Positions 2,084 through 27,564 of a DNA stretch of 64,000 nucleotides are shown in pieces. The DNA comes from Henckelia pumila (lineage: Eukaryota > Streptophyta > Magnoliopsida > Lamiales > Gesneriaceae): NCBI RefSeq assembly GCF_033568475.1, contig NW_027331831.1, positions 15,934,001 through 15,998,000 on the forward strand, in the 5' to 3' direction. The translations under genes were made by a program, and so were the position numbers. Each line of letters begins with the position of its first letter. The stretch's first letter is position 1. The notes under the pieces are model-generated. The model was given only the letters and a program-made list of their open reading frames with translations. It did no database searches and was not told where the DNA came from.

Positions 2084-4297
2084 TTATTCTACTTCACTCG
2101 CATTTCCTCCTGTCGTAGTTCCGGATGTTCCTTCGGTATCATCTTGGTATTCTTCATCACTTTGAATATGTTGTGTTCGAGTAGCGGCTTTTGACCAATC
2201 ATTGAGCAAACATTGGGCTTCCAAGTTTTCCGGCCTTAAGCTAGAACGTCTCTCGTCCAATGTATTTCCTTCAATACTAAATGCTTGCTCCACTGCAACT
2301 GTTGAAACCGGACAAGCTAGAATTTCTTTTGCCATTATAGCCAAAATTGGATATATTTGTGTTTTTTGCGACCACCATCTCAAAATGTCGAAGTTTTCCT
2401 CATCTGTATCACTAAAATCAAAAGTAATGGTAAAATAATTCTCAAGTTCCTGACTGGAACTTGAGGATCCTCGTGGACGTTTCGTCCGTTCCCTTAATAA
2501 AAGTTGTGCTTTAGTAAGTTTAGAAGAAACATTACTAGTTGCAGTGGATTGTGTTTCATATAAAACAATTTGTCCACCATATTTGATGTTATATTCATTA
2601 TAAATATCAAGTAAATGAGTTTTAATATTAAACAAAATCAATGAGATAGAAGGAATCGTTTCCGCAATAGGCTCCAAAGATTCATAATATAATGTTAACA
2701 TGTCGCTTAAGCCATCTAATTTAAATCTAGGATCTAAAACAAAAGCACATAAAAAAATTTCAGGAATGAGCAAAAAATATTTTTCCCATTTTGCCATGAC
2801 GAGAATACATTGAGATAAAGCACTATCATTAGAATTAACATGTTCATGAAAAATATAAGCAATGTTGCAACAATGTGTTAAAACTAAATGTGAAGTAGGG
2901 TAATAAACACCGGATAATTGGTCACTAGCATCATTAAAAACTTTTAAAATTTCACAAATACTAGTGCATATGTTCCATTGGTTTGAAAACAAATAAATAT
3001 CACGAGCTTGAACAAATTGATGAAAAAATGTACATAATAAATCTTTATATTCTAAAGAGGATAATAACAATTTATATGTTGAATTCCAACGAGTTGGAAC
3101 ATCTCGTGCAAACCGCTTAGGCTTCATACCATTTACTCTACAAAATTTTCCTCATTGCTTCATAACTTGGGGGTGCGTCCATAAATAATGAATAGCGTTT
3201 CTAATTGGTTGAATATGTGTGCCTAAATTTTTTAGCCCATCTTGAACACACAAATTTAAAATATGACATGTGCATCTAATATGAAAAAATTTGCCACCTA
3301 GTGATGGTTTACATATTTCAATAAGCTCACTAATACTAGAAGTATTTGCACTAGCATTATCAAAAGACATTGAAAAAACTTTGGTAGTTAGACCATATTC
3401 TTCTAAAATAACAAATATAAGTTGCGAAATATTTTGTGCCGTGTGTGATTCGTTGAAACATCTATATGCAAGCAACCTTTTTTGAATGTTTCAATTATTA
3501 TCAATCCAATGACATGTAATACCCATATATGAACAACTTTGTCAATGATCACTCCAAATATCGGAACACAAAGAAACTTTATTATTCAAACTATAAAATT
3601 CCTTAATTAATTCTTTCTTTTGATCAATGACTAACTTTTTCATTGTGCGTTTGAGACTATTTCTTGGAATACGTCTAATAGAAGGATTTGCACTTGTAGA
3701 AAGCCAATTTTCAAAAGATAATTTATCGCTAAAACTAAAAGAAAGTTGTTCAACCGCACAAAATTTAGCCGTTTCTTCTCTAAATCTAGCTTCGTTATAT
3801 TTAAATAGTTGAGATTCATTACCCGATTGAGAAGAGAATGCCGGAATTTGAGTTTGACCACGATCAATACCAATTTCCACCGGATGATTTTTCTCGATAT
3901 GCCGCGTCAAAGTTCCATAACCACCTCCTTGTTTAAATTTGTAACATTTTGAAAAATATTTGCATTTGGCTTGCAAATCACCGGAGGGAAGCGTCACCTT
4001 GTCGAAGTGTTTGGTGAAGATATCGGATGTCGGGCGAGGCACCGCTCGAGTTTGTCTTTGAGAGGCCGCCGGATCGTTCATACTTTCTTGACTTGCATGA
4101 TGACGTGGTGGTGGTGGTGGTTGTTCAACTTGTTGTCTTTGTTGCGCCTCTTGTCGAATTTCTTGAATTTCATCATCGAAATATTCAAGATCAAATCCAT
4201 CGACATTGAATTGAGGATACTCGACCTCGGGTGGTATGATGCTTTTTTCCTTTCCTTTTCCTTTGTCACCCCTACGACTTGATCCCGCTCCGGACAT
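2084..4297 (-). pseudogene. hAT transposase (RICESLEEPER/Ac-like), three in-frame stops
   Basis: A single minus-strand reading frame of about 737 codons starts at ATG 4297 (MSGAGSSRRGDKGKG) and ends with TAA at 2084-2086. It is interrupted by TGA at 3542-3544, 3491-3493 and 3152-3154. Order: Gln/Pro-rich low-complexity N-terminus; BED-type zinc finger near residues 97-140 (LQAKCKYFSKCYKFKQGGG..TRHIEKNH); catalytic core with FDNASANTSSI and HIRCTCHILNLCVQDGL; then RWNSTYKLL; and the hAT C-terminal dimerisation domain (YPILAIMAKEILACPVSTVAVEQAFS). Where the BED finger usually has a second cysteine (C-x-x-C), this copy has phenylalanine (CKYF). The three stops fall where tryptophan codons are expected. 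The reading frame itself is otherwise conserved, so the decay is by point mutation. Confidence 0.92.
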
Positions 4298-8122: not shown

Positions 8123-8953
8123 TGAAAGAAATGATGTACGTGGTTGTTATGTAAAATAAGGCAGTGTTGTACTTCATGTCGTAACATCAAAGACAACACA
8201 GTGTAGCAGAAATTTAAAGCAAAAATAAAACACAAGTAAATAATTTTGCACGAGTATAAAAACTCGTGCGGGTGCCTTAGGGCTAAATATTACTAGTAAA
8301 CGTAAGATCAGTCTTACAAAGCAATCCTAGTAATTTTACGAAAAGTCAATAAATCCTAAATTTCTCAACAAGTTGAGAAATCAAACTTGCATCCTAAATA
8401 AATCAGAGTAAAAATAATATATGCAACTCCCGTGGCCTAAATTTGAAGAGACACAAAATATCTTCGAACAACACTATTCCCACAGTGTTTTCTCTGATGT
8501 CTTCAACACGAACGACAACACGGGGACATGCAACAACGAAGGTTGCAAACATTGCTTCAGAGTTCTTCAAATTCTTCAACAGAATTCTTCAGAGTATGCG
8601 CTGTGAATTATACGTCTGAAGCCCCTTTTCTTTGTGCGTGAAAATCTTTTTTTATAGATAAGCATCCAAATCTTGAAGATTTTCTTTGATAGACTCCTAC
8701 ATGAATAAGAAAACAAATTTTAGTAGGAAATAAACTCTATCAAATCTTATAAATCAAATCTAGATAATATCGGTTTATATTATATCAACTAATCACCTTA
8801 TCAAGACATGATTTAAACTTGGCAAATATATAATTTAACATAATCGTGATATACACAATATATTTACCAAATATCTTAACTTGTCTAGAAAGCAAAATCT
8901 TTAATATTCAATTTATTAAGGACCGAAAATATCAAGGAATAACATTCCTTTCA
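8123..8953 (-). repeat. Element A 3' LTR (831 bp)
   Basis: It begins TGAAAGAAATG and ends CCTTTCA on the plus strand. It contains two copies of the spaced palindrome (8162-8203 and 8483-8524) and, on the minus strand, a TATA-like CTATAAAAAA at about 8647-8656. Relative to the other LTR it lacks about 35 bp near 8761. Confidence 0.95.
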
Positions 8954-9062
8954 ATCTCCCCCTTTTTGCTTTCTGGACAAAACATTTCACAAGTGTGAAA
9001 TAAACATAAAATCCCCCTGAGTTTAAAAATTCTTCTCCTCCTGAATTTTAAGTCTTCCCCTG
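8954..9062 (-). promoter_or_regulatory. Element A polypurine tract plus extra upstream tracts
   Basis: On the minus strand AAAAAGGGGGAGAT (8954-8967) directly abuts the 3' LTR, the expected plus-strand primer. Further purine runs occur at about 9013-9021 (CAGGGGGAT), 9030-9045 (CAGGAGGAGAAG) and 9054-9062 (CAGGGGAAG), and another inside the env-like ORF at about 9366-9377. Repeated polypurine tracts here are a known trait of Sireviruses. A 7-bp-arm palindrome TTTCACA-AG-TGTGAAA lies at 8985-9000. Confidence 0.8.
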
Positions 9063-9276
9063 AAGTGTTGTCCCTCGTGTCGTAACACGGTGGATAACAT
9101 AGGCAATAACACATGAGATTCTATAATTCATATATTTAGATCATAAGTGGGGTAGAAGATGTTAGTCTAGTTAAAGCATGTAAGAGCATTTGAGGCACAT
9201 AAATAGAACAACCAAAAAACACTTATATTGAAATCAAAATTAACAAATAATTTAAAGATGAGAGAAGAAGCAAATT

Positions 9277-11261
9277 CTAAATGTGATCACTATCGGATCC
9301 CTCTTGATCAGTAACTTCATCCTCATCATCTCTAGTCCCAGATGGACCAGCTTCAGCTTGTGCACTATCTCCCCCTGTTTGGCCAGAAATGCCAAGGTGT
9401 TTCCGAAAATCAGCCAAGACCATGCTGTAGAAGGCAATATCTTCTTGTGCTTGAGCAATTTTTTCTTCAGCACGAGTCATCAGCAGCTGAATAGTGGCAA
9501 AGGTGAATTCCAGGGAGGTAGGAGTATGCACAGTTTCTTCAGTGTTGTCTCCCGTGTTGGCAACATCGGGGGCAACACCAGCAATGTAAGCAGCAGGAGT
9601 AGGAGTGGCAGTCCAGTGTAAATCCAGTACACGATTTCCCTTTAGAAGACCAGCTGCTAACTTTAAAATCTCAGGTTGATCAGTGAGATCTTCTGTAATA
9701 TTGCGGATGAAAGCCTGAGATTCCAATATGCCGTAGATCAAAGAGGGAAATGGGAGCTTTGTAGACTTGAGTCCTCCATCAGCAAATTGGAGCACAGTCT
9801 TGAATACCATCTTTCCAAAATTAAAAGGACTCCCAGTCCTAATGGCATATAAAATGACCACCTGCGGTCTGGTGATAACTGTTGAATTGGATGAAGGAGT
9901 CCAATTCCTGACAGCTATCTTATGCAGCACAAAATAAAAGGAGGTGAGCTTGGCTGCAGAAAAATGGTCAGAGAACTTTTTGACCATACCACCAGTGAGA
10001 ACAGTAATCACTTCGTTGATCTCTGGAGGATTGCCTTCATCAACGTCTGGGGTGGAATAAAAAGAGTTGATCACGGCTGGAGTGAACTCGAACAGCCTAC
10101 CCCGAAGGTACACCAATCCATACTTTGCAGATTCTGGATCTTCAATTCTTGCAGTCAAGTTGGCGTAGAACTCCAGAATCACCCTCTTACAGTAGGGTAT
10201 CACAGCAACAACAGTAGAATATAGCTGTCGAAGCTTCAAAAAGTCAATTAAATTGTACCTATTATAGGAGCGAACATCTATGTTCCTCTCATCCAGAAGA
10301 CCTCTATGAATGAAGAGAGGCCAGACAGCAGCAGCATCACCAGAATAAAACATGAGGGAATGGGCAGCATCCATGTCATAATCCTCATCAACAGTATTGT
10401 CCGTGGTGTTGACGACACCAACAACAACACTGGCAGCAGGAGCAGAAACTTCCTCAGTCTCTAAAGCATCTTCATCAGCATCCATGCTGGAAATATCTTT
10501 AGAGTCTTCTTCTTTTCCAATATCAACACTCTTATCAGAAGAGTCAGCAGCAGAATCAGTAGAGGAAGAAGAGGAGGAAGAATCATTAGCTTGATGGGCT
10601 TTATTTGCAGCAAACTCCTCCATCATCTCAGCATCAGGCTCATCATCGGAGAGATGAGCAGTGGGAGGAACAGATAAAGAAGCCTTGCCTTGCTTAAGGC
10701 TTTTCAAAATTTGTGCCAAGGTGGCATCTTCATTGGAAACAACAAGTTCTGGAGGTACAGTAGCTGCGGGAGAGTCCTTAGGAGGATCAACATCACCAGA
10801 GGTGCTTGAATCATCACTCTCCGATGCAGACTCAACAATAGTAGCGGAGACAGAGGCAGCAGCAGAACCAGAGGGTTTCTTCCTCGCCACAAATTCGAAG
10901 TTGGCATCATCAGAATCGTCACCAGAGCTGTGATCTTCTTCAGCCATGGAGATGCGAGGACCCTTGTAAAAGACTGGGTGAAATCAGGGTTGTAACCTGC
11001 CTGTCTTTTTGATCGGCGTGCCATTGGTGGAGGAGGATTAACCCTATTCAAGACGGAGAAATCAGGAGGATTCTCCAAATCAATCGCATTCCCAGGTTCT
11101 CCAGGCATGAGAACAGCGAGAGGAACGGGTTCCATGGGAACTGGAACAATCGGCAGAGAAGACACCGTGGATGGAATTTCCGGTGTTGTAACACCAGCAG
11201 CAACATCGGGTTCTTTATGACCCATCTCGCTTCGGATGTCTTGTGGATCAAAGCCTGCCAT
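9277..11261 (-). pseudogene. Element A env-like ORF (putative plant transposon protein), frameshifted
   Basis: Located between pol and the 3' LTR, the place of the Sirevirus env-like gene. The N-terminal part starts at ATG 11261 (MAGFDPQDIRSEMG) and is proline-rich (PVPMEPVPLAV, NPPPPMARRSKRQAGYNP). Near 10980-10990 the frame shifts, and the rest is read in another frame to the stop at 9277. That part has an acidic Ser/Asp-rich linker (first internal ATG 10947, MAEEDHSSGDDSDD) and a globular region with RGLLDERNIDV, VILEFYANLTARIED, YLRGRLFEFTPAVINSFYS and a helical C-terminal part. Joined length would be about 660 residues. I see no signal peptide or convincing membrane segment, so calling it an envelope protein follows the literature, not this sequence. 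Three spaced-palindrome copies (9540-9580, 10392-10432, 11183-11208) lie inside the coding region. Confidence 0.8.
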
Positions 11262-12289
11262 TGAAGATTAAATTGAAAGTGAGAGAAGGGTAGGGTTAGC
11301 AGAAAACTCAATCGGGAACAAGGAATTTTGAGAAGATGATAAAGCCCGATAATCACGAGAAATCATATATATAGAACCCTTATTACAAACGGTAATAAAA
11401 TCCTAACAAACCCATAATTACCCTGATCCCTGATCTCCCTCATGTTCCAACGGTAACTTTCCTAACGGACGTGAATTAAAAGCCGAGATTTAAAGAGATA
11501 AAATCCCATAAATAAGGAAATAATCCGAGATAAATATTTCAGCCCAAATCTTCCAGTATTACCTTCACATCAGCGTAACTCTACTGAACCAAAAATCAAA
11601 CAAAAATTCAATTTTTAGTTAATAGGGTAAATCATCAAAATTCGTCTATTTAGAACCTTACCCAAAAACAGAACCCTATTAGCAAAAATGCATATGCATG
11701 GCCTATTTTATGCCTAAACAGAGTGTAACATAAAATAAAAATGCAATCACATGCAAGAGATATGTTTACAAGTGTAGTGTTGTTTCTCGCGTTGACAACA
11801 TCATCAATAACACCAAAGTTTTTCAAAAGTATTTGAATTCTGCACACTTGATTACCCTTGATAGATAAAATTTCAGAAGTGGTAGCCTGCACACTAATCG
11901 AACAGTCTTCATTGGACTCGATTAGGTAGCTTTTTCCATTTTCTTCCGATTTTGATAAAGTTTGTATTTATGACATTGGTCAACAAACTTCAAAAAGATT
12001 ATAACACTGAATGTGCGAAACCACCTTTCACATGGAACAAGAACATGGAATACACGTACATTCCTCAACTACTCGGTGGTTTAGTCAGAATTCTAAAGCC
12101 AAAAAGGGTCAGTGTGCCAAAAAGATTTTTGCAGAAAAACTTGGCATCAATTGAATCATTGTAACAGAAATTCAAGCACTATACAAAACAAAATGAGTGC
12201 AGAATACCTAAAATCCTAAAAATGCATGACAATAAAAACAACAGTGTTGTCGGTAGTGTGGTAACACCGCAGACAACACATGCAAAGGA
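11262..12289 (-). other. Element A spacer between pol and env-like ORF
   Basis: Non-coding in all frames. It holds two complete spaced-palindrome copies at 11775-11815 and 12242-12281, the latter just past the pol stop codon. It probably contains the promoter or splice acceptor for the env-like ORF, but nothing specific can be shown. Confidence 0.6.
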
Positions 12290-15200
12290 TTATAATGCAC
12301 ACATGCTGAGAGACCTCCGAAGAGTTGAAAATCTCTCATGATCTAATGCTTTAGTAAAGATGTCTACCAATTGGTTATTGGTTCCAACAAACTCCATTCG
12401 AATCATAACTTTTTCTACCAAATCTCGAATAAAGTGATGACAAATGTCAATGTGTTTTGTGCGTGAGTGTTGAACTGGATTCTTTGATATATCAATAGCA
12501 CTCGAATTAACACAATAAAAAATGGGGGGTTCATTCTTAAAATCATAGTCTTCAATCATTTGGTTCATCCAAAGAAGTTGTGAACAACAACTTCCGGCTG
12601 CCACATATTCAGATTCAGCAGTCGAAAGTGACACACAATTTTGCTTACGACTATACCATGACACCAAATTATTGCCAAGATAAAAACACCCACCCGTAGT
12701 GCTCTTTCTATCATTCACATCACCAGCCCAGTCAGCATCACTAAAACCTACAAGGTTAGTGTTGGTTTCCCTCGTATACCACAATCCCAAATCCAATGTA
12801 CCCGAAACATATTTCAAAATTCTCATAACAGCTTTTAAATGGGTAACCTTTGGATCAGATTAGTACCTAGCACATAAACACACACTGAACATGATATCAG
12901 GACGACTAGCAGTCAAATACAAAAGACTCCCTATCATGCTGCGATACATGGTGTTGTCAACACCAGCCGCAACACTGTCTTTTCCTAATTTTTCACTTGA
13001 GCCCATAGGAGTTTTCATGTTCTTAACATTCTCTTTGCAAAACTTTTTTACCAAATTCTTTGCATACTTATTTTGACAAAGAAAAATCCCATCATTTGTT
13101 TGCTTAACTTGCAATCCAAGGAAAAATGTTAACTCTCCTACCATGCTCATTTCAAAAGTAGAAGACATGCATTCAACAAAACTATCAACATGCTTTTGAG
13201 ACGAAGCACCAAAGATAATGTCATCCACATAGACTTGATAAATAAGAATTTCACCTTTGGCCTTTTGAATAAAAAGGGTTTTGTCAACCTCACCTCGTTT
13301 GAAGCCAATTTCGAGTAAATACTCGGTTCAACCTACCATACCATGCTCGTGGAGCTTGCTTCAAACCATAGAGTGCCTTTTTCAACTTGTAAACATGATC
13401 CAAGTGATGTGGATCCTCAAAGCCTTTGGGTTGCTTCACATACACTTCCTCATTCAAAATACCATTCAAAAAAGCACTCTTTACATCCATTTGGTAAAGT
13501 TTTATACCCATATGACATGCAATTGCAAGCAATAATCGGACAGACTCAATGCGGGCAACAGGAGCGAAGGTCTCATCAAAATCAACCCCCTCAACCTGAG
13601 TATACCCTTGAGCAACCAACCTTGCTTTGTTCCTTATGATGTTTCCTGATTCATCGGTTTTATTTTTGAAAATCCATTTTGTACCAATGACATTACCATG
13701 ATCAGGTGGTGGAACTAAAAACCAAATATCATTTTGGACAAATTGCTCAAGTTCTTCATGCATGGCATTTACCCAAAATTCATCATTCAAAGCATCATTG
13801 ACATTCTTGGGTTCAATATTGGAAATAAAACAGGAATGCATTACCTGTGAGTATACGGAACTCATTCATACTAACCCAACCATCTTGCGGTAGTCAACTT
13901 TGTCCTTAGCACGGGTTTGCCTTGTTCCATGAACATCTCCAATAATCTGAGATGAAGGATGATTCTTCTGTATCTTGCTTGGAATGTCCTTTACAGTAAT
14001 CATCTCAACTTTCTCATTTTCTTGCGAATTTTCCTCATGAACAGTTTCTGGAGGAACCAGTGTTGTGTTTGGTGTTGCAACATCAGGAACAACACTGTGT
14101 TCTTCGGAGGAAATTTCCAGCAAGCTTTCAGTATCATTTTCAGCAGTTTTTCCCTTGAGATCGGCACCATCATCAAAAACAACATTAATAGATTCCATCA
14201 TTGTTCTGGTTCTAAGGTTATACATCCTATATGCACGACTATTAGTAGAATAACCAAGGAACAAACACTTATCACTCTTGGAATCAAATTTTGCTAGGTG
14301 ATTTCTATCGTTCAAAACATAACACACACAGCCAAATATATGAAAATAATTAAGATTTGGTCTCTTTCCCATGAGGATTTCATAGAAAGTCATCGAAGAT
14401 CCACTTCTCAAATAAACACGATTGAAAATATGGCACGCTGTGTTCAATGCTTCTGCCCAAAATCTTTTGGAGATATTTTTTGAGCTCATCATCACCCTAG
14501 CCATCTCCTGCAACGTTCTATTCTTCCTTTCGGCAATTCCATTCCGTTGAGAAGTTTTTGGGGCAGAGAACTCTTGTGAGATGCCCTTCTTATCACACAA
14601 AGAAGAAAACAATGAGTTCTCAAATTCCTTTCCATGATCAGTTCTGATCCTTGCTACAGTCAAAGTATGTAGGTTAGTAATCTTGGTAAACAACTTCTTA
14701 AAAACACCAAAAGTGTCTGATTTTTCTCTAAGAAATCTTACCCATGTAAAACGAGAAAAATCATCAACACATACCAAAAAATATTTTTTACCTCCATAAC
14801 TTTCGACTTCCATGGAACCCATCAAATCCATGTGCAAAAGTTCAAGACACCGTGTTGTCCCACAGTGTTGTAACACGGGATGCGCAACACGGGTTTGCTT
14901 ACCTTTTTGGCATGAACCACAAACATATGGAACACCAGTCTTTAGATTTGGAAGACCTCTGACAGCTTCATACTTACTCAGATTCTTTAAGGTCTTGAAA
15001 TTCACATGTCCAAGTTTTTGGTGCCATAGACTAAACTCATCAACTTTTGAGTGTCTACATGCCAATTCTTCACCGAGTTGGTAGTAGTTATCAACTAATC
15101 TTGTACCTGTGATAACACAACGATTAGCATTATCAAAAACTTCACAAGTATTCTTACCAAACTTCACATGCAAGTCATCATCACACAGTTGACTAATTGA

Positions 15201-17303
15201 AATTAAATTTGTATTAAGTCCTTCAACGTGTAAGACGTTATGAAGCTTTGGAAACCCTTCCACATTGAGTGTTCCTTTGCCAATAATTCTTCCCTTTGCA
15301 CCACCTCCGTAGGTCACTCTACCACCATTTTGTTCAATGTAGTCCGTGAGGTGATCTTTCAAACCTGTCATGTGCCGAGAGCTTCCACTATCAAAATACC
15401 AATTACCTGCAGTGTTAGCTTTCAAGGAAGTATAAATAACAAAACATCTAATATCAGGCTTTTGTATCCAAACTTTCTTCACAGTGGGCCTCTTTCTGCC
15501 AGTGTTGCTCTTGGTGTTGGACAACACGGAGGGTAACACTTTCTTAGATTCCCACAAAATATAGTCATTTTTAAGCTTACGACAAAAAGGCCTGATATGA
15601 CCAGATTTGAGACAATAGTGACATACAAAAGGACGCTTCCATTGTTTTGGCTTAGGAACAGAAACATCCTTTTCAACAATGAGTTTCTTACCTTTCGAAG
15701 CAGTTGAAGGATGGTTCAAGGAATCATTTCCTTCCTTCACAAACACTGGTGTTTTGGAACATTCACCAGTCTTAAAAACACTTTCTTTAAAACCAAGTCC
15801 AAACTTATCATTCTTACCCATAGTCAAAATGGAATCAAGTTTGCTCGAACTGAAATTAAATTTATCAAGTGTAGTTTTTGCTCTTTCAAGTTCAGAATTC
15901 AGCAACCCTAATTCCAGATCTTTCTTACTCATGAGAATTTCCAGTCTAGCCACAACAGCTTTCAATTCAGTATTCTCTTTTGTAAGAGTTGTGTTCAACT
16001 GATTCCTCTTGTTCCAATCACTGTATAACTCTTCATAGAGTTTTTGAATACCTTTCAGAGTATAAGGATCAGCTACCTGTTCTTCATGATTGCTGAAATT
16101 TTCAAGGTTAGAAGCAACAAAACAAACAGATTTTTGAACAGTGTTGCGTCCAGGTGTTGCAACATCGGAGCCAACATCGAGAGGATTAATCTGAAAATTT
16201 TTCTTACTCTCCAGTAAAGCAGTAAAAGATATGAGATCTGCCTGTTCAACCTTTTCTTGTTCTTCTTCAGAATCATCATCACTTAGAGAAACATTCATAC
16301 CTTTCCGAAGGCGATTTGCGCATTTATAAGCATAGTGGCCATATCCCTTACATTCCCTGCATTGAACATTATCAAAATTTTTGCTTAAGGACTGATTCTT
16401 ACCTTCATACCTTTGACGAGGTCCTCGAGTAGCAGCAGATTTTTGAGGTTTCTCTGACGTAGGCAGTCTAGGAAACTTTGAGGGTTGTGCACTTTTCACA
16501 TCCTTCTTTTCTTTCATTACCTTGAGATAATCAGTAAATTTCTTCGAGATCAAGGCAATAGAATTTTCCTCAAGATCAGAATCCTTTACTTCCTGTTGAA
16601 CTTCAGCAAAATCATTGTAAACATCATTAGATACTTGAAAAGCAATAGACTTACTTTTCGAGTCATCTTCGGCTTCCAACTCCATCTCATAGGTGCGAAG
16701 AGAACTAATTAACTCATCCAAACCCATTATAGATGTATCTTTTGATTCATCTATAGCACAAACCTTGGTGTGAAATCTTTTGGGAACAGAACGAAGCACT
16801 TTCGATACAAGTCTCTCGTTCGAAATAGGATCACCAAGAATAGATGCTTCATTCGCAAGGCTCTTCAACCTTCCATTGTATTCCATGATGGTCTCTGATT
16901 CCTCCATTCTCATTTTCTCAAATTTTGTAGTTATGAGACGCATCCTTGTCTTCTTGACACTAGCCGAGCCTTCACATTGGGTTTGTAGTTTCTCCCAAGC
17001 ATCCCTAGCACAAGTACAAGTACCAATTAGATTAAACATGTTCATATCAACAGAAGTGAACATAGCATTAAGAGCTTTAGCATTATAAATAGCCGTTGTA
17101 TTCTCATCGGCTGTCCATTGTGATCTTGGCTTTGGTCCTGGTACATCATCATCTCTCATGGGTGGTGTCCAACCGTCAAGAACACGCTGCCAAGCCCTGG
17201 ACTCAATGGATTGAATATACATGCTCATTTTCAATTTCCAAGGGCCGTAGTTTGTCCCATCCAAAATAGGTGGACGAATTTCACTTGTGTACGGAGTGTC
17301 CAT
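12290..17303 (-). pseudogene. Element A gag-pol polyprotein (Copia, Sirevirus), broken
   Basis: Starts at ATG 17303 (MDTPYTSEIRPPILDGTNY), six codons after an upstream in-frame Met. Gag has the UBN2-like core (ILDGTNYGPWKLKM) and two zinc knuckles (CRECKGYGHYAYKC and CHYCLKSGHIRPFC). The rest follows in Copia order. Protease has WYFDSGSSRHMTG. Integrase has the HHCC finger, HMDLMG, RTDHGKEFEN and NGIAERKNRTLQEM. RT has [11 protein letters not shown] and YVDDII. RNase H (from about 12826) has STTGGCFYLG and STAESEYVAA. The C-terminal end is at 12290. Lesions: TGA at 13866-13868 between integrase and RT, a single-base frameshift at about 13325 inside RT, and TAA at 12860-12862 before RNase H. 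The 1151-codon 5' half (gag to integrase) is uninterrupted. Five spaced palindromes lie inside this gene. Confidence 0.93.
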
Positions 17304-17347
17304 AACTAACCTGTAACACAAACCAGGAACTCACTTAGTAAATTCAA

Positions 17348-17365
17348 GTGGTGGCTCTGATGCCA
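17348..17365 (-). promoter_or_regulatory. Element A primer binding site
   Basis: On the minus strand TGGCATCAGAGCCACC begins two bases inside the LTR edge at 17368. It matches the initiator-Met tRNA 3' end apart from C for T at position 4. Confidence 0.85.
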
Positions 17366-17367
17366 CG

Positions 17368-17660
17368 TGAAAGAAACGGTGTACGTGGTTGTTATGTAAA
17401 ATAAGGCAGTGTTGTACTTCGTGTCGTAACACCAAAGACAACACAGTGCAGCGGAAATTTAAAGCGAAAATAAAACACAAGTAAATAATTTTGCACGAGT
17501 ATAAAAACTCGTGTGGGTGCCTTAGGGCTAAATATTACTAGTAAACGTAAGATCAGTCTTACAAAGCAATCCTAGTAATTTTATGAAAAGTCATTAAATC
17601 CTAAATTTCTCAACAAGTTGAGAAATCAAACTTGCATCCTAAATAAATCAGAGTAAAAAC
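17368..17660 (-). repeat. Element A 5' LTR, first part
   Basis: Homologous to 8123-8417. It carries the better preserved copy of the first LTR palindrome (17407-17447). It is cut at 17660 by element B, and the LTR resumes at 26992. Confidence 0.95.
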
Positions 17661-19536
17661 TGAAAGAGTGGGTGCTCGGTTAGCCAACTTGTGGCTAAGG
17701 ACTTTTATGACTCTATGTAAAACAATCTTTTGTTTAATATAATTTACACTTTTATAATGGTATTGACTTTATCTTTCTTCATATTGTTATATTATGATAT
17801 AATATTGTTGTTTTGATAAAGACCTTGAATATACTATAGTGTATGTACGATGTGGTTGCACATGGGGATGGCTATCATGAAACACATTTTATAGTCACTG
17901 TATATTCTAAACTGTTCCTAGTCAATTGAGCCGTCCGCAAAAAAGGGATAAGGATCGCTCGAGATTGAGACTAGCATTTGCGATGCCGAGTACCACGTTT
18001 CATTGGTATGGAACATAGAGATGTTCAAAGCATGCAAATGGATATTCATATGATGAATGATCGAACTACCCTATTCGGACTTTTCAAGTGGTTATCACTT
18101 ATCGAGTGGATAAAGTCCGCGGTTTTGGTTGTACACCATTAGTCCTTATTACTTGAAACATCATTGAGACTCTATATGCTAGTACTGTACTTTGACTCGT
18201 TTACCGACTCTATTGGGGTCATCAGGTGTCGGGATTGGGTATAGTTATGACACATATAGGAGTCGATGCTTTGTTGTCAAGGATTCACCACATACTTGCG
18301 AGTGTGGATATCCTATGCGATCTGAGGAGATATTAGTGTGACGAATCTCTGGCCAGAGTACATGATGTGTTTTAAGTTAATTGGTTATCCTAGTAACACA
18401 TGCGATGTCACTATTTGATCTCCAAGATGTAATGCATAGTTATCGAATCTCGAACGACTCTCGATATACCAATGGTTGTTGATTCGATCGGGATATATGG
18501 ATGAAGGGACCGTACTGTACGCTAACCAAAATCTAGTGGTTCTTGCAGGCACTATCAGTAATACCTAGGGAATCATGGAGCGATGTTGCTAGGCGCTCTT
18601 ACCATGATTCGATGGGTAAGTCAGAAATTGTTGTTCCGAGTCACAAGGAGTTGTGAGCCCACGGCTAGCTGTATTCCTGAACCATTAAGGGTTACACAAG
18701 TAATGGATTACTAAAACCCCGTAGAGATAGTTAAATTTAAAGAGTTAAATTTAATGAAAGAGAAGTTGGACTTCTTAACTAAAGGGAGTGAGATTTTCTA
18801 AAATGACATAGGGATGGGCATTTTTGGAAATCACTGAATTCGGATTCAGAAAAATTATCTTGACTCTAAAAGATGCAGAAATGGTTTCTGTGCACATTGG
18901 TGAAATCAGTTTATCAATCGGAGTCACGATGAATTTTATATTAATTTCTATAACAACGGGCTTGGCTTGTTGGGCTTAAGTTATGGATTGTGGGCTTTAA
19001 GGAGTTAGAGTCTTGATACAATTATAACTAGAAATTATCTATAAATAGAAGTGTTGGGTTCGAAAATCAAATACATTGTGTCTTATAATTTTCGAAATTA
19101 CACTCTAAATATTTGAAGGGGATTTTCGAAATCCTCTGTCCCTTTCGGAGAAAATTCGGCTTGTGATTTTTATGAAAAATTACAATCTGAATTAACAGAT
19201 CATATCTGTTTATTCTCTACGCAAACTTCTAATTGATTTCTAGTGCAATAAATCAGAGGGTTTTGTTTTCTATTCGTGGACCTGATTGAAGAAACGTTCG
19301 TTCATCAGTTCCGGGGATATACAACAAGAGCAGATTAAATTCTGTTGGTGTCCATAATCTCGCTTCGAGATTTTAAGGTAAAATATTTAATTGTGATTAT
19401 TTATTTTACTTACACAATTTAATCGTAAAAGTTTTGATACCCAGATATGGAATCGTTCCATATTAATAAAATAAATTTTTAAACTTCCGCTGCACCGGGT
19501 ATCAATTCTAATTGATCTGAACACCGTTTTCCAACA
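17661..19536 (+). repeat. Element B 5' LTR (1876 bp)
   Basis: Starts TGAAAGAGTGGG and ends TTTTCCAACA. A TATA box (TATAAATAG) lies at 19040-19048, with an expected transcription start about 30 bp downstream. Confidence 0.96.
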
Positions 19537-21181
19537 GTGGTATCAAAGCCAGGTTGCTCAAATCAAACGATTAAATTAATCGATTGTACAAAATTTTTAA
19601 GCCTCGTTTTTGAAACAAAACAAATTTTTAAAAAATCAAAATTTTGACGGGCAAAACGCGGGCAGCGATCGGATCGCTGCCCAATGGGCAGCGACGGGCT
19701 GCCCAGCCCGAGCCCCGGTCGGGGCACGGGCTGCCCGGGATTGTCCCGGGCAGCCCGAAAAATTAAAATTTTAATTTTTTAAAAATTTTGAATTTTTGAA
19801 ATTCTTGTGTTTGATTCGATCGAAAATTGTTTTTGATTAGATCACGAGGCATCGGATCGAATTGTTCGAGTCCGAAATTTTTAAAATTGATTTTTGGATA
19901 AATTTGAATTTTTGGAAAATTTATAAATTTTATCCGTTAAATTAAATTTTATAAAATTAATTATTTTGGTACAATTGATGATAAGATATGATCTTATGGA
20001 TGGATAAGATAAAATATGATTTTATCTTTTAAATTATGATGCCATTGCATGTTTATCTAATTATTTAATTATTGAATTAATTAATGGATAAATGATGATC
20101 GATTGCCATGACCAATGTTTTAGGTGTATGTTAGGTGATTTACATTTGTCTTATTGTTGTTGGTGTTTATTAATGAGCTTGGTTTATAGCCCAATATGAT
20201 TGTCATATGTAATAAAAGTGGGCCTGGTTTATGGCCCGTTCCCACCCCTAAAAATGTATCCCATATTTGTCATCGAAATTTATTGTAAATTTATTAGACT
20301 TAGTGGGAGACAAAGATTTGAAGAAATGGTGGGCCCAGCAGACAATGAAGACCGAAAAAATGTAAATTGGAAGCACAATGTAATAGGATTGCATTGCATA
20401 CTTGCATAACACCTAGGATTGGACTTAGACTCGTGATTGGCAACCACGGGTCGAATAGTTAATGGGATCGATCATCCTTTAATAATATATGATATTATTG
20501 ATGTATGCATGTTTAGACTAAATTGTATGAATCCCGCAAGCATACATATATTTGCATGATGAGACAAATTTTCAAAAAATAAAATCCCTCATTTTAAATA
20601 TGATTTAAAATTGATATCAAGATAAACAAAAGGGAATTTTAAATATTGTTTAAATATTCCTACCTTCCATCAACGATCAATGTATGTGATGCTACCCGCG
20701 GATACGGTCCGGCTCATATTATTGGGGGGGCCCGTTCGTCGGAAAGCTGTACATTGGATCGACACATGTTGTAAGTTGGGTGGAACTCCCATGGGATTGG
20801 CTCATATTATTAGGGATCCACATGGCGATCGTCCATCACAACTTAATATTTATGGGTCATCTTGACATGTCACAATAAACGACGTCATATTATTGGGCCC
20901 TTATTGGACATGAGGTAAAAACATGGAGGTTGCTTTGGAAGCAATTGGGCTCTACCTTTTGAAAATTATGGTTGGCTGATATTATTCGGGACCATAGTTT
21001 GTCAATTGGACTCCAAGTTCCCACTAAAGAAAATGTTTCTCGTTTTCACTAGAGGGTAGTGAAATCGTCAAAATAGTGGGAGTGTAATTCATAAAATGAA
21101 ATTCGCCATATTTTATGTCTTAGTAAATTAATTAAACAAATAACTGATTATTGTCTGTTTCTTTTTCAGTATTTCATTACT
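19537..21181 (+). promoter_or_regulatory. Element B leader: primer site, hairpin array and repeats
   Basis: The primer binding site TGGTATCAAAGCC is at 19538-19550, one base after the LTR (initiator-Met type). A cluster of four perfect GC-rich hairpins occupies 19660-19757. Around 20715, 20813, 20886 and 20978 there are four degenerate copies of a CATATTATTGGG-like unit. No supported open frame precedes gag. A long leader that contains structured RNA is where packaging and dimerisation signals would be expected. Confidence 0.75.
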
Positions 21182-24100
21182 ATGAATTCGCGTAATCCAC
21201 TACTCTCAATTCTCGATCAAAACAAGTTGACTGGCGCTAACTATACGGAATGGTTCCGTAAGTTAAAAATCATTCTAAATTCGGAGAAGGCTTTCTACGT
21301 GTTAGAGAAGCGTCCTCCGAAGGAAGCCCTGACTAACACTAGTCCGGAAGAGTTGAAAAAGCTTGACGATTGGTGGGACCATGATGTCAAGGCAAAGAGT
21401 TATATGCTAGCATCAATGTATGATGAACTCCAGAGGCGATTTGAGGATGCGGTGAATGCTGCTTACATTCACAGCGCACTCAAGGAACTTTTTGGAGCTT
21501 AGTCAAGGGCCGAGAAATTTGCGACTGTCAAAGAGCTCATGACATGCCGCATGAGAGATGGGACTTCAGTCCGTGAGCATGGGGTACACATGATTGGGCT
21601 CATTGAAAAGTTGGTAAAACTCGAACTGACATTAGAGCATGAACTCAATGCGGACTTGTTGCTTCTTTCACTTCCTTCGTCGTTTGACGGCTTTGTGATG
21701 AACTTCAATATGAACAAGATAGAGGCCACCCTTGAAGAGATGGTCAATATGCTTGTGACTTATGAAGCCACACTAAAGAAGGATAAACCGGTACTCTTGG
21801 TTGGCTCCTCTTCTAACTCATAGAAAGGACCAAGTGGAAAGGGTAAGAAACGTTCTGCCCCGCCCAAGAAGATTGTACCAAATAAGAAGGAAAAGGCTAA
21901 AGCTTCAATTGGAATAAAAGATGAAAACGTTTGCCATTACTGCAAGAAACCCGGTCATTGGAAACGTAACTGCAAGGAATACCTCGAACAGTTGCGAACT
22001 GCAAAGGGTATGTTTTACATTGAAATAAATGTTTCTCTTAATACTTCTTCTTGGGTATTGGATATCGGATGTGGATCTCACATTTGCAATGATTTGCAGG
22101 TGATGACAAGAAGTCGTAAGCTAAGGATGGGTGAGACCCAGCTAAAGCTCGGGAATGGTTCTAGAGTCGAAGCCAAAGCTATAGGAGACATTTATTTAGT
22201 TTTGCAGAACAATTTTAAGTTATTTTTGAGAGATGTTTTATATGTTCCGGATTTGGTCAAAAACATTATATCTATTTCTATGCTTGATAGAGATGGTTTT
22301 TCTTGCAATTTTGTAAATGGGATTTGCAATATTTACAAGAATGAATGTTTGATTGGAAATGGACAACTTGAAAACGATCTATATAGCTTAAAATTAAAAG
22401 ACGTTCCAATTAATTATGTTGATAAATCGGTAACAACAATTAAAAGGAAGGACGATAGTCAAAACCCGGCAAACCTTTGGCATGCTAGGCTAGGTCATAT
22501 TTCCTCAAGGAGGATGAACAAGCTAGTGGGAGAGGGCATGTTTGATATGTCTGATATTAACTCTCTACCTACTTGTGAGTCCTGCCTAAAGGGAAAAATG
22601 ACTAAATCTCCTTTCAAAGGGAAACCTGAGCGTAGTCAAAATCTGTTGGATTTGATCCATACAGATGTTTGCGGTCCATTTAGGATTGGTACTAAATGTG
22701 GCAACACCTACTTCATTACCTTTACTGATGATCATTCTAGGTATGGGTATTTATATTTAATGAAATATAAGTCTGAAGCATTTGAAAGGTTCAAAGAATT
22801 CAAGGCTGAAGTAGAAAACAAACTAGGTAAAAGTATTAAGGCACTTCGATCGGATCGAGGTGGAGAATACTTAAGTACCGAGTTTTTGGACTATCTAAAA
22901 GAGAATGGGATTCTCTCTCAGTGGACTCCTCCTATGACATCTCAGCTTAATGGTGTTTCAGAGCGTCGCAATCGAACTTTGTTGGACATGGTTCGATCCA
23001 TGATGAGCTTCACTGAGCTCCCACCTTCGTTTTGGGGCTACGCGCTTGAAACGGCGCTATTGTTGTTAAACAACGTCCACACTAAAGCAGTAAATAAAAC
23101 ACCATACGAGTTATGGAATGGCAAAGCTCCTAAGTATTCTTACTTGAGGATTTGGGGATGTCCTGCTTACGTGAAGCAGACAGCGGGAGATAAGTTGGAT
23201 AGTCGATCCTCCTTATGTTATTTTGTGGGGTATCCGAAGAATTCAATCGGATATTATTTCTATCATCCTAATGAAACAAAAGTGTTTTTTTCAAGGAATG
23301 CCACCTTCTTGGAGAAAGAGTTCTTATTGGATAAGAAAGGCAAGATGATGGAACTCGAAGAAATTCGAGAAGAACCCGAGATACAAAATAGCGATCCTAC
23401 ACCTCAAGAACCATCACAAGACACGCCTACTACTAGGAGATCCGAGAGGACTTCTAGGCCTCCTATTAGATATGGTCTTCTTCTTGAAGGGGATCAAAGT
23501 GAACCCGACATTGGATGTGATCCAAGAAACTTCAAGGAAGAAATTTCTAATGCGGATTCAAATTTATGGCTTGAAGCTATGCAATCGAAAATAGATTCGA
23601 TGCATTCTAACCAAGTTTGGTCTTTAGTAGATCCTCCCGATGGAATTGTTTCAATTGGGTGCAAATGGATCTACAAGAAAAAGCTTGGGCCTGATGGAAA
23701 GGTATTGACCTACAAGGCACGATTGGTGGCAAAAGATTATACTCAAAGACAAGGAGTTGACCATGATGAAACCTTTTCACCAGTCGCAATGTTCAAGTAC
23801 ATAAGAATCCTTATTGCCATAGCAGCATGGTATGACTATGAGATATGACAAATGGATGTAAAGACTGCATTTCTTAATGGAAACATTAAGGAAGAGATAT
23901 ATATGACGCAGCCTGAGGGATACACATCCATGGGAAGCGAGCATAAGGTATGCAAGCTTCAGAGATCAATCTATGGTCTCAAACAAGCATCAAAAAGTTG
24001 GAACCAGAAATTTGATGAAACAATAAAGGATTTTGGTTTCATCAAAAACCCGGAGGAACCATGCGTGTACAAGAAAGTAGTTAAGGATGCGGTAACATTC

Positions 24101-25096
24101 TTAGTACTTTATGTTGATGACATTCTACTCATGGGAAATGACGTAGGGATGTTGCAGTCAACAAAGATATGGTTATCAAGTAGATTCTCGATGAAGGATT
24201 TGGGTGAGGCCTCCTATATTCTTGGGATACAGATCTATAGAGATAGATCTAAGAGAATGATAGGACTTACTCAATCAACCTACATCGAAACCATATTGAA
24301 AAGGTTTTCAATGGATGGGTCCAAGAGAGGACATCTACCTATGTGTCATGGAGTTTCTTTATCCAAGTCTATGTGTCCCAAGACTGACAAAGAGATAGAG
24401 AAGATGACACACGTACCATATGCGTCAGCCATTGGTAGTATCATGTATGGGATGATATCTACCAGACCGGATGTGGCCTATGCTCTGAGCGTCACGAGCA
24501 GATATCAAGCCAATCCCGGTCAAATACATTGGAAAGTCGTGAAGGATATTCTTAAGTACTTGCGAAGGACTAAGAATGTGTTCATGGTTTATGGAGGAAG
24601 AGAATTGAAGTTGGAAGGCTACACCGACTCTAGCTTCCCATGTGACGTGGATGACTCAAAATCAACCTCTGGATTTGTATTCGTGCTCAATGGCGGTGCT
24701 GTCTCTTGGAAGAGTTCCAAGCAAGACACCACAGTGGATTCCACCACTGAGGCAGAATACATTGCAGCATCAGCTGCTGCTAAAGAGGCGGTTTGGATAA
24801 GGAAATTCATCCAAGAGTTGGGTGTAATTCCTGAAGCTGTTGGTCCAGTCCCAGTGTACTGTGACAACACGGGTGCCGTTGCTCAGGCAAAGGAGCCAAG
24901 GTCTCATCAGAAGTCCAAACACGTACTGAGGAAATACCACATCATCCGAGAGATTGTGGAAAGAGGAGACATTAGTGTCGAGAGAGTGACCTCTACAGAC
25001 AATATCGCTGATCCGCTTACTAAGCCCTTGCCAGGACCATTGTTTGACAAACATCGCGAAGCAATGGGATTACGTAGTATGACTAGTTGGCTTTAG
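21182..25096 (+). pseudogene. Element B gag-pol polyprotein (Copia), three stops
   Basis: A single frame of 1304 codons starts at ATG 21182 (MNSRNPLLSILDQNKLTGANY). It is interrupted by TAG at 21500-21502, TAG at 21821-21823 and TGA at 23846-23848, and ends at TAG 25094-25096. Gag; one zinc knuckle CHYCKKPGHWKRNC (21932-21973). Protease has LDIGCGSHIC, where the catalytic DTG triad reads DIG. Integrase has WHARLGHIS..CESCLKGK, HTDVCGPF, RSDRGGEY and GVSERRNRTLLDM. RT has QMDVKTAFLNG and YVDDILL. RNase H has KSTSGFVFVLNGG and TEAEYIAA. No frameshift is present; all damage is single-base. The altered protease triad plus three stops means this copy cannot make its own proteins. Confidence 0.95.
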
Positions 25097-25110
25097 GGCA
25101 AGTGGGAGAT

Positions 25111-26986
25111 TGAAAGAGTGGGTGCCCGGTTAGCCAACTTGTGGCTAAGGGCTTTTATGACTCTATGTAAAACAATCTTTTGTTTAATATAATTTACACT
25201 TTTATAATGGTATTGACTTTATCTTTCTTCATATTGTTATATTATGATATAATATTGTTGTTTTGATAAAGACCTTGAATATACTATAGTGTATGTACGA
25301 TGTGGTAGCACATGAGGATGACTATCATGAAACACATCTTATAGTCACTGTATATTCTAAACTATTCCTAGTCAATTGAGCCGTCCGCAAAAAAGGGATA
25401 AGGATCGCTCGGGATTGAGACTAGTATTTGCGATGCCGAGTACCACGTTTCATTGGTATGGAACATAGAGATGTTCAAAGCATGCAAATGGATATTTATA
25501 TGATGAATGATCGAACTATCATATTCGGACTTTCCAAGTGGTTATCACTTATCGAGTGGATAAAGTACGCGGTTTTGGTTGTACACCATTAGTCCTTATT
25601 ACTTGAAACATCATTGAGACTCTATATGCTAGTACTGTACTTTGACTCGTTTACCGACTCTATTGGGGTCATCAGGTGTCGGGATTGGGTATAGTTACGA
25701 CACATATAGGAGTCGATGCTTTGTTGTCAAGGATTCACCACATACTTGCGAGTGTGGATATCCTATGCGATCTGAGGAGATATTAGTGTGACGAATCTCT
25801 GGCCAGAGTACATGATGTGTTTTAGGTTAATTGGTTATCCTAGTAACACATGCGATGTCACTATTTGATCTCCAAGATGTAATGCATAGTTATCAAATCT
25901 CGAACGACTCTCGATATACCAATGGTTGTTGATTCGATCGGGATATATGGATGAAGGGACCGTACTGTACGCTAACCAAAATCTAGTGGTTCTTGCAGGC
26001 ACTATCAGTAATACCTAGGGAATCATGGGGCGATGTTGCTAGGCGCTCTTACCATGATTCGATGGGTAAGTCGGAAATTGTTGTTCCGAGTCACAAGGAG
26101 TTGTGAGCCCACGGCTAGCTGTATTCCTGAACCATTGAGGGTTACACAAGTAATGGATTACTAAAACCCCGTAGATATAGTTAAATTTAAAGAGTTAAAT
26201 TTAATGAAAGAGAAGTTGGACTTCTTAACTAAAGGGAGTGAGATTTCCTAAAATGACATAAGGATGGGCATTTTTGGAAATCATTGAATTCGGATTCAGA
26301 AAAATTATCTTGACTCTAAAAGATGCAGAAATGGTTTCTGTGCACATTGGTGAAATCAGTTTATCAATCGGAGTCACGATGAATTTTATATTAATTTCTA
26401 TAACAACGGGCTTGGCTTGTTGGGCTTAAGTTATGGATTGTGGGCTTTAAGGAGTTAGAGTCTTGATACAATTATAACTAGAAATTATCTATAAATAGAG
26501 GTGTTGGGTTCGAAAATCAAATACATTGTGTCTTATAATTTTCGAAATTACACTCTAAATATTTGAAGGGGATTTTCGAAATCCTCTGTCCCTTTCGGAG
26601 AAAATTCGGCTTGTGATTTTTATGAAAAATTACAATCTGAATTAACAGATCATATCTGTTTATTCTCTACGCAAACTTCTAATTGATTTCTAGTGCAGTA
26701 AATCAGAGGGTTTTGTTTTCTATTCGTGGACCTGATTGAAGAAACGTTCGTTCATCAGTTCCGGGGATATACAACAAGAGCAGATTAAATTCTGTTGGTG
26801 TCCATAATCTCGCTTCGAGATTTTAAGGTAAAATATTTAATTGTGATTATTTATTTTACTTACACAATTTAATCGTAAAAGTTTTGATACCCAGATATGG
26901 AATCGTTCCATATTAATAAAATAAATTTTTAAACTTCCGCTGCACCGGGTATCAATTCTAATTGATCTGAACACCGTTTTCCAACA
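25111..26986 (+). repeat. Element B 3' LTR (1876 bp)
   Basis: Same ends and length as the 5' LTR. It follows the polypurine tract directly and is followed by the AAAAC duplication and the rest of element A's LTR. Confidence 0.96.
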
Positions 26987-26991
26987 AAAAC

Positions 26992-27564
26992 AATAGATGC
27001 AACTCCCGTGACCTAAATTTGAAGAGACACAAAATATCTTCGAACAACACTATTTCCACAGTGTTGTCTCTGATGTCTTCAACACGAACGGCAACACGGG
27101 AACATGCAACAACGAAGGTTGCAAACCTTGCTTCAGAGTTCTTCAAATTCTTCAACAGAATTCTTCAAAGTATGCGCTGTGAATTATACGTCTGAAGCCC
27201 CTTTTCTTTGTGCGTGAAAATCTTCTTTTATAGATAAGCATCCAAGTCTTGAAGATTTCCTTTGATAGAGTCCTACATGAATAAGGAAACAAACTTTAGT
27301 AGGAAATAAACTCTATCAAATCTTATAAATCAAATCTAGGGTTTATAGTTTTTCTAATTTCTTCTCTAGCCGAGTGAATATCGGTTTATATTATATCAAC
27401 TAATCACCTTATCAAGACATGATTTAAACTTGACAAATATATAATTTAAAATAATCGTGATATACACAATATATTTACCAAATATCCTAACTTGTCTAGA
27501 AAACAAAATCTTTAATATTCAATTTATTAAGAACCGAAAATATCAAAGAATAACTTTCCTTTCA
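26992..27564 (-). repeat. Element A 5' LTR, second part
   Basis: Continues the LTR after element B and its duplicated AAAAC (17656-17660 and 26987-26991). It contains the second LTR palindrome at 27059-27098. It retains about 35 bp (around 27340-27375) missing from the 3' LTR. It ends CCTTTCA, followed by GCTTT, so B lies in A's promoter-side LTR. Confidence 0.95.

Follow-up and report, generated by a model that had tools for sequence, protein, structure and literature searches.

The two described systems closest to the locus studied here are the palindromes of Sirevirus LTRs and the VANC motifs of VANDAL transposons. The former, termed RM palindromes, are simple and element-specific, 10–20 bp long, with no fewer than 8 copies in each element; in the excerpts of Bousios 2010 (PMC2829016) on which we draw, a CGG-CCG core occurs in 12 of 13, the palindromes are clustered in LTRs and, for the most part, directly upstream of env, and those outside the LTR are confined to nine env-bearing elements of 13. 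The same source calls the function of the env-like protein in plant retrotransposons "unproven and highly controversial." VANC motifs, as presented in the portions of the two reports cited, are short and repeated over one VANDAL family, where they are densely packed in a single orientation, as tandem repeats that lie mainly in non-coding regions of these DNA transposons (Hosaka et al. 2017, PMC5735166; Sasaki et al. 2023, PMC10398659).

We analyzed a 64,000-nt window of the Henckelia pumila (Gesneriaceae) genome (contig NW_027331831.1, positions 15,934,001 to 15,998,000). It contains element A, a minus-strand Sirevirus at 8123–27564; a second copia element interrupts its 5' LTR. Domain order (gag-IN-RT), the GGGGGAGAT/TG junction of the polypurine tract (PPT), and additional PPT-like tracts place A among the Sireviruses (Ty1/copia), and AAAGC adjoins both of its ends, consistent with a 5-bp target duplication. 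The env-like ORF that is optional in Sireviruses is present between pol and the 3' LTR; what appears to be its start is in a different frame (10704–11267), so that the ORF of this copy is broken. The parts of the element are as follows:

8123..8953, minus strand: 3' LTR, adjoining the AAGGGGGAGAT/TG polypurine tract
9277..10983, minus strand: env-like ORF in its present form, 568 aa, PF20167
12290..13865, minus strand: RT region in three open pieces, two with PF07727; the third (12290–12859), in which no Pfam match was found, we take to be RNase H from its position and a familiar motif
13866..17330, minus strand: gag-integrase ORF with PF14223, PF22936, PF13976, PF00665, and PF25597
17368..17659, minus strand: 5' LTR, inner part, the remainder lying beyond the nested element
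17661–26986: nested copia element inside the 5' LTR
26986..27564, minus strand: 5' LTR, outer part

Dispersed over A is a module built from four half-sites that approximate (Y)AGTGTTG(Y), arranged as a direct-repeat pair at 12-bp pitch followed by an inverted pair, with a center gap that is mostly 0–2 bp (0, 1, 2, and once 3 across the element). The original prediction of at least 15 copies, 11 internal and two per LTR, was borne out: all 15 are present. The two in the 5' LTR flank the nested insertion, and the outer unit is weak or missing in the copies at 11169, 12937, and 16139. Scores below are matches out of 28 defined positions:

8162..8201: 3' LTR copy a, 23/28
8483..8523: 3' LTR copy b, 23/28
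9063..9102: interval between env-like ORF and 3' LTR, 22/28
9540..9580: env-like ORF, C-terminal part, 25/28, peptide GVAPDVANTGDNT
10392..10432: env-like ORF, middle, 26/28, peptide SVVVGVVNTTDNT
11169..11208: weak module at the start of the env-like gene, 19/28, lacking an outer arm
11775..11815: pol-env spacer, 22/28
12242..12281: immediately downstream of the final pol ORF, 24/28
12937..12977: reverse transcriptase, 22/28, peptide SVAAGVDNT, lacking one outer arm at the point that encodes YRSMIG
14058..14097: integrase-RT linker, 27/28, peptide SVVPDVATPNTT
14850..14892: integrase, 43 nt with a 3-bp center, protein length as in distant plants
15500..15541: interval between the gag and Pol_BBD domains, 26/28
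16139..16178: downstream of the gag domain, 21/28, peptide DVGSDVATPGRNT
17407..17446: 5' LTR copy a, 25/28
27059..27099: 5' LTR copy b, 24/28

Steps between modules measure 0.3–1.3 kb over the whole element, and the gaps between internal copies (467–1121 bp) are more regular than expected by chance (CV 0.42, ends included; P = 0.0012). Over 8123–17659, 11 sites score at least 22/28 and 13 at least 20/28, against means of 0.000 and 0.015 in 200 first-order Markov simulations. The nested element (17661–26986) has no site of 18/28 or more, and the rest of the window has three, all exactly 18. Pairs of TGTTG peak at exactly 12 bp, with 10 in A, none in the nested element, and one in the rest of the window. 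Codon-preserving shuffles (five ORFs of A, 500 each), in which similar counts would have pointed to chance, gave a divided answer. The gag-integrase ORF exceeded them, its best score of 27 surpassing all 500 and its count of sites at or above 20 being reached in none, but the count in the env ORF was not significant (0.526 at ≥20; 0.058 at ≥22), one RT piece was marginal (0.014 at 22), and two of the five ORFs had no site. This comparison is a weak one here because the amino acids themselves suit the motif.

Genome-wide, perfect four-unit modules number 1284 in 885 Mb, while controls with an 11-bp pitch, the reversed pattern, or the same pattern with N6 spacers each gave 0. The same perfect module occurs in two contigs of IMG/VR. 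All 33 module-bearing loci that we fetched, a sample chosen by the module itself from listed places on one chromosome, match element A. That each is a Sirevirus, in a sample so chosen, speaks against the modules being sites of a host transcription or chromatin factor recruited along the length of the element, as does their presence through gag, integrase, RT, and env, distant from the promoter; nor would an element keep the site of a factor that silences it. RAV1-type AP2 proteins recognize a CAACA box, which the AGTGTTG/CAACA-like cores resemble, and a motif common to several Sirevirus families of one host is what a shared factor would favor. Palindromes in retrotransposon LTRs are, moreover, often discussed as host factor sites in the text of Bousios 2010 consulted (PMC2829016). 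On balance we regard a host factor as an unlikely explanation of the array, albeit one of some weight.

The modules lie at equal coding positions in three element families of the host that are about 30% diverged. Absence of the copies from close relatives, named in advance as a sign of chance or recent spread, was not what we observed: relatives mostly 84–97% identical to A keep them at the same places, and so do families only about 68–74% identical. Among codons with unchanged amino acids, third bases are conserved at 380/401 half-site positions in family 1, compared with 11903/13772 elsewhere and 233/284 in spacers. The corresponding fractions are 130/163, 3274/5831, and 61/103 in family 2 and 29/34, 393/682, and 6/15 in family 3; these totals include the sites used to find loci (14058, env 10392, and gag 16139), family-1 and family-2 loci having been located by exact module matches. 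Excluding those sites (14058 and env 10392 in family 1, 14058 and gag 16139 in family 2), a mask-shift null gave P = 0.0014 for family 1 (5000 shifts) and P = 0.034 for family 2 (3585 usable shifts). The footprint is uneven. In family 1, LTR copy a falls below its flanks (86.8 vs 91.7%) and the gag copy at 16139 does no better than its own (92.1 vs 93.0%); in family 2, where site-by-site footprints cover 4 alignable sites and 14058 comes from a single locus, half-sites of the integrase copy at 14850 are lower than spacers (76.8 vs 85.8%). Synonymous conservation resides in half-sites and not in spacers, which upholds the claim of a doubly symmetric module with free spacers running through coding sequence. 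In these alignments half-site letters are more conserved than the protein requires, and the DNA sequence itself appears to be kept by selection.

The reverse-transcriptase copy illustrates this constraint. In other plants the usual residues at this site are V-D-Q-S/T. Genome-wide in the host, 733 places encode the module's V-D-N-T and one encodes V-D-Q-S/T, with the reversed control for the latter also returning one; the two patterns detect only these residues, and Sireviruses with others at the site are missed. In the 100 V-D-N-T places listed, a count by eye gave GTT 100 times, GAC 97, and AAC 94, compared with 71/142, 24/140, and 28/111 outside modules in A. V-D-N-T is mostly written in codons that A seldom employs elsewhere. 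If selection acted instead on a recurrent peptide, S-V-x-x-G-V-x-N-T-x-x-N-T, with DNA similarity as its by-product, this would fit the shared reading frame of six of eight coding copies. This reading, to which we give hardly any credence, is contradicted by the two coding copies in other frames and center gaps of 0–3 that throw the right half out of frame, by copies in LTRs and spacers, and by synonymous third-base conservation in half-sites; the uncommon codons at the RT site also tell against it.

We compared the proteins with those of other plants by aligning 38 hand-chosen among 120 listed. At four sites the Primulina proteins have retained peptides compatible with the module, which most distant plants do not have. 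The gag module sits in a stretch absent from most distant plant proteins, as expected if a small mobile or microsatellite-like insert had spread within the element and were now inherited by descent. At the integrase and RT sites, however, protein length is that usual in other plants, and the modules replace conserved residues with length unchanged; such equal-length substitution argues against insertion and contradicts this account at both sites. Because spacers also differ from copy to copy and half-sites outlast spacers between families, we consider insert spread very improbable.

A further alternative is that the modules act as RNA hairpins of the genomic transcript, serving as packaging, translation, or dimerization signals. 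Many of the 13 copies tested fold stably (z of about 0 to −5), most of them alike in context. Complementarity between spacers shows a slight rise in family 2 (0.389 vs 0.326, sd 0.035) and no significant one in family 1 (0.414 vs 0.394, sd 0.017). A hairpin would not require the inner arms to repeat the sequence of the outer ones, as they do here, and the inner gap of mostly 0–2 nt is too short for a loop unless bases unpair. Analyzed as a structured RNA element, the module stems show no excess of compensatory base changes: the arms deviate independently, deviating pairs are still paired in 26.4% of cases vs 27.1% when shuffled, and wobble-type changes account for a larger share of deviations in the left arm (128/166) than in the right (108/263), the reverse of what a hairpin predicts. 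These arm statistics disfavor RNA hairpins, which we judge improbable.

We favor an explanation in which the module is the DNA recognition site of a protein that marks the element; taken whole, its chances seem to us evenly balanced. That a protein binds the module is, judging by sequence, very probable, and an arrangement of four half-sites would be well matched to a sequence-specific DNA-binding protein acting as a dimer of dimers. Form and signs of selection agree with the original prediction of a site for a multimeric DNA-binding protein, whereas the env-like protein, one of its two candidate partners, and a VANC-like role remain proposals. The binding protein might as readily be encoded by the element as not, and the env-like PF20167 ORF would be the first candidate. 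A hint that the env product is the partner comes from the nine env-bearing elements of 13 to which palindromes outside the LTR are restricted in the part of Bousios 2010 cited above. Binding along the full length would mark the element for itself, and such marking would most likely keep it open to transcription, as VANC does for VANDAL, a role that we advance tentatively and by analogy; packing or tethering of the element's cDNA or chromatin would be an alternative one. The array looks like a tagging system that makes the whole element recognizable to a DNA-binding protein. In the fullest version, its own env-like protein would bind regular modules across the retrotransposon genome, coding sequence included, and protect it from silencing, and selection would have held the target sites in place in spite of protein and codon constraints. 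We think such a self-recognition code doubtful as a complete account; it would be, to our knowledge, the first in a retrotransposon.

Comparisons with VANC did not strengthen the proposed analogy with VANDAL anti-silencing. The env-like domain scored an hhalign probability under 1% against VANC's DUF1985, with no profile match, and DUF1985 was found in none of five scanned ORFs of A. AlphaFold models of the domain are weak (pLDDT 47 and 60), and a Foldseek search with the second returned 71 matches at E up to 10 and none at E up to 0.001. Kinship of the env-like ORF with DUF1985 was set aside, none having emerged from the profile comparisons, and the Foldseek search linked the domain to no solved fold. 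Nor did a crude test of CpG decay by distance from modules (0.40, 0.39, 0.44, and 0.37) reveal a gradient or lower decay nearby. Known VANC motifs in A amount to one YAGTATTAY and no AGTTGTCC/AC, and CGG-CCG within 0–8 bp is absent from 8123–17659 and from the outer 5' LTR part.

What the env-like protein does in plant retrotransposons is an old question, and an array of cis sites common to several Sirevirus families of one host offers a direct test of it. In both an integrase and a reverse transcriptase, selection at the DNA level appears here to have prevailed over codon bias and conserved residues, which cautions that strong selection can act on synonymous sites in transposons. In the open-licence PMC literature, judged from titles and abstracts, we found no palindrome array running through the coding sequence of a retrotransposon. 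The extra ORF of Athila carries PF20167, as does the env-like ORF of A, and the portion of the report cited describes no DNA motif or DNA binding for it (PMC11728184); PF20167 occurs too in a Sirevirus-like polyprotein of Trifolium pratense (P0106), whose RT has V-D-Q-S, a point against the favored explanation. Compared with RM palindromes as characterized in the excerpted source, the modules of A are likewise palindromic, with 15 copies (RM palindromes having at least 8) and two per LTR, but they are 40–43 bp AGTGTTG modules of four half-sites, dispersed inside gag, IN, RT, and env and not confined to the LTR and the env linker. Compared with VANC motifs as given in the cited portions, the outer half-site YAGTGTTGY is two A-to-G changes from the VANC21 motif YAGTATTAY, and the VANC6 motif AGTTGTCC has GTTGTC in common with AGTGTTGTC; the sites of A differ in being palindromic tetrads within retrotransposon coding sequence. 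As far as these partial accounts extend, the four-half-site array across coding sequence sets element A apart from both nearest known systems.

The palindrome array that the original prediction placed throughout element A, a minus-strand Sirevirus, is real and element-wide: 15 copies of a DNA module extend across the element, coding regions included. All 15 share four AGTGTTG-like half-sites, two direct at a 12-bp pitch and then two inverted, with spacers of free sequence. Internal copies are more evenly spaced than random. The commonest distance from one TGTTG to another in A is 12 bp (10 pairs), ahead of 13, 15, and 27 bp (2 pairs each), and the rest of the window shows no such peak. Six of the eight coding copies (9277-16178) use the same reading frame. 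The parts of the element are as follows.

8123-27564, minus strand: element A
8123-8953, minus strand: 3' LTR of A
17368-17659 and 26986-27564, minus strand: 5' LTR of A, in two parts with a nested copia element between
17661-26986: nested copia element inserted in the 5' LTR of A, with LTRs of 1876 bp that are 98.6% alike

AAAGC adjoins both ends of A. The PPT junction of the element reads AAGGGGGAGAT/TG, and additional GGGGGA tracts lie at 9375 and 9017. The genes run gag, integrase, reverse transcriptase (RT), and env-like ORF (Pfam PF20167) in a degraded copy, with pol split into several pieces and the env-like start in a different frame. The LTR (8123-8953, 26986-27564) has a CpG observed/expected ratio of 0.93-0.95, compared with 0.50 over 8123-17659. 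The nested element holds no site of at least 18/28 by module score, and thus serves as a useful internal control. The window also contains a hAT transposase fragment at 2084-3151 (PF05699, PF14372) and 2.7-kb direct repeats (38551-41274 and 45051-47772; 95.8% alike, no 200-aa ORF between) that are perhaps a large non-autonomous LTR element.

Across the 885-Mb Henckelia genome, in which the window lies on contig G000:C77, CAGTGTTG-N24-28-CAACACTG matches 413 times and the reversed pattern 0 times; the perfect four-unit module matches 1284 times versus 0 reversed, and a perfect module with a pitch one base shorter yields no match genome-wide. Among the matches listed, from one chromosome, all 33 module-bearing loci that we fetched match element A. 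A chance origin of the array is excluded. On contig G000:C1, the distance between an env-type and a linker-type module is ~13.2 kb rather than 3.6 kb in several cases (e.g., 3028240/3041490 and 83412817/83426073), a pattern that fits nested insertions or tandem elements; alignment blocks in L005-L006 and L008-L009 are fragmented. In IMG/VR, a single perfect four-unit module occurs in each of two contigs (L046, 6962-6997; L047, 1280-1314).

The Sirevirus families observed in the Henckelia genome all carry the array. Close relatives (family 1), whose lack of copies at the same positions had been named as the sign of a chance or recent array, retain them: the eight with at least 6 kb aligned (L005, L007, L010-L013, L016, and L023) each have 7-12 sites at ≥20/28, at positions matching A. 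Family 2 (L014, L017-L019, and L025-L029) is 68-74% identical to A by weighted identity. Its modules lie at 15502-15541, 14851-14890, 14058-14097, 12938-12977, and 16140-16176 and inside the env-like gene, with individual loci lacking some of these sites. In family 3 (L042-L045; main blocks 69-72% identical to A), L044 bears a perfect integrase module where that of A is imperfect, L043 has a module at 15500, and further modules occur. Family 1 uses (Y)AGTGTTG(Y) as outer and GRTGTTG as inner half-site, and family 2 uses AGTGTTG as inner half-site. Within the scanned range of 0-2 bp, centre gaps of 0/1/2 bp occur in 50/38/5 of 93 distinct family 1 modules (14 loci) and in 2/15/1 of 18 family 2 modules (9 loci).

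Half-sites are 92.5% identical to A in family 1 and 84.2% in family 2, compared with 84.3% and 68.6% for spacers and 88.7% and 72.5% for flanks, with some single sites deviating. In each of the three families, codons that keep their amino acid retain the third base more often inside half-sites than outside them, and retention in spacers is near or below background. With the sites used for locus finding removed and masks shifted randomly, P = 0.0014 for family 1 and 0.034 for family 2; Fisher values overstate significance because loci within a family are non-independent. This is good evidence at the sequence level that selection acts on the module DNA.

At the RT site, 45 of the 50 relatives in which the motif preceding Y-R-S could be located (non-Gesneriaceae or of unstated source species, many of them near-identical Trifolium proteins) have D-Q-S/T there, and the only Primulina protein covering the position has V-D-N-T. 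Our search of the Henckelia genome for two residue patterns found V-D-N-T encoded at 733 places (reversed control, 0) and V-D-Q-S/T at one, which is noise level given one in the reversed control and resembles a V-D-N-T copy altered by a point mutation. In 100 of the 733 places, those listed, we counted by eye GTT in 100, GAC in 97, and AAC in 94; outside its modules, element A uses these codons at 71/142, 24/140, and 28/111, respectively. GTT-GAC-AAC spells TGTTGACAACAC, the inner dyad of the module. At least four sequence types have TGTTGACAACAC here (copies within a type being non-independent), and the site therefore does not reflect a single recent burst. RT-site and integrase-site residues equal other plants' proteins in length, so these sites arose by substitution.

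Palindromes in general tend to fold as RNA, and many modules do form RNA folds. Against an RNA hairpin, mirrored positions deviate independently, with 26.4% of deviating pairs still paired versus 27.1% when shuffled, and both arms changed alike in 15 cases versus 14.7 in shuffles. Nor does the right arm show an excess of wobble-compatible changes. Spacer complementarity is slightly raised in family 2 (0.389 versus 0.326, sd 0.035) and not significant in family 1.

Beyond Henckelia, we asked how well each protein's residues permit a module by synonymous coding. The best score falls in the protein's own top 1% in 25/25 site-protein cells for Henckelia (7 proteins), 50/54 for Primulina (15 proteins), 5/27 for other named plants (10 proteins), and 7/17 for sources without a species name (7 proteins), each cell taking the highest score over several start positions, which raises the chance expectation above 1%. 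At the middle env site, the Primulina tabacum env-like protein P0006 reads V-A-D-T-S-D-N-T, and P0007, an env-like protein of unstated species, reads V-A-N-S-Q-D-N-T. Judged by these peptides, from which its DNA letters are inferred, Primulina appears to share the array, suggesting that it is older than the Henckelia-Primulina split.

In Bousios 2010 (PMC2829016), palindromes occur outside the LTR in 9/9 env-bearing elements and 0/4 without env, and 77/79 non-LTR palindromes lie upstream of env. Because only the env-bearing elements there have non-LTR palindromes, the env-like ORF product is by analogy the first candidate for binding the module; its predicted folds are too poor for use. The CGG-CCG cores of those repeated-motif (RM) palindromes do not occur in element A, where the module may therefore substitute for them. 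There is also a resemblance between the half-site YAGTGTTGY and YAGTATTAY, the motif of VANC21, one of the anti-silencing proteins of VANDAL transposons (PMC5735166). This likeness is suggestive only, with chance at a few per cent by our own uncomputed estimate and two VANC motifs compared. PF20167 shows no kinship to a profile of the VANC domain DUF1985 (PF09331) built from ten Henckelia sequences, and local CpG decay near modules gives no sign of demethylation. DUF1985 itself is abundant in the Henckelia genome (150 scored matches of 440 candidates), where DNA transposons may carry VANC-like genes. The array looks like a self-recognition or tagging system with putative binding; it differs from the RM and VANC families in their defining features and is by these a member of neither.
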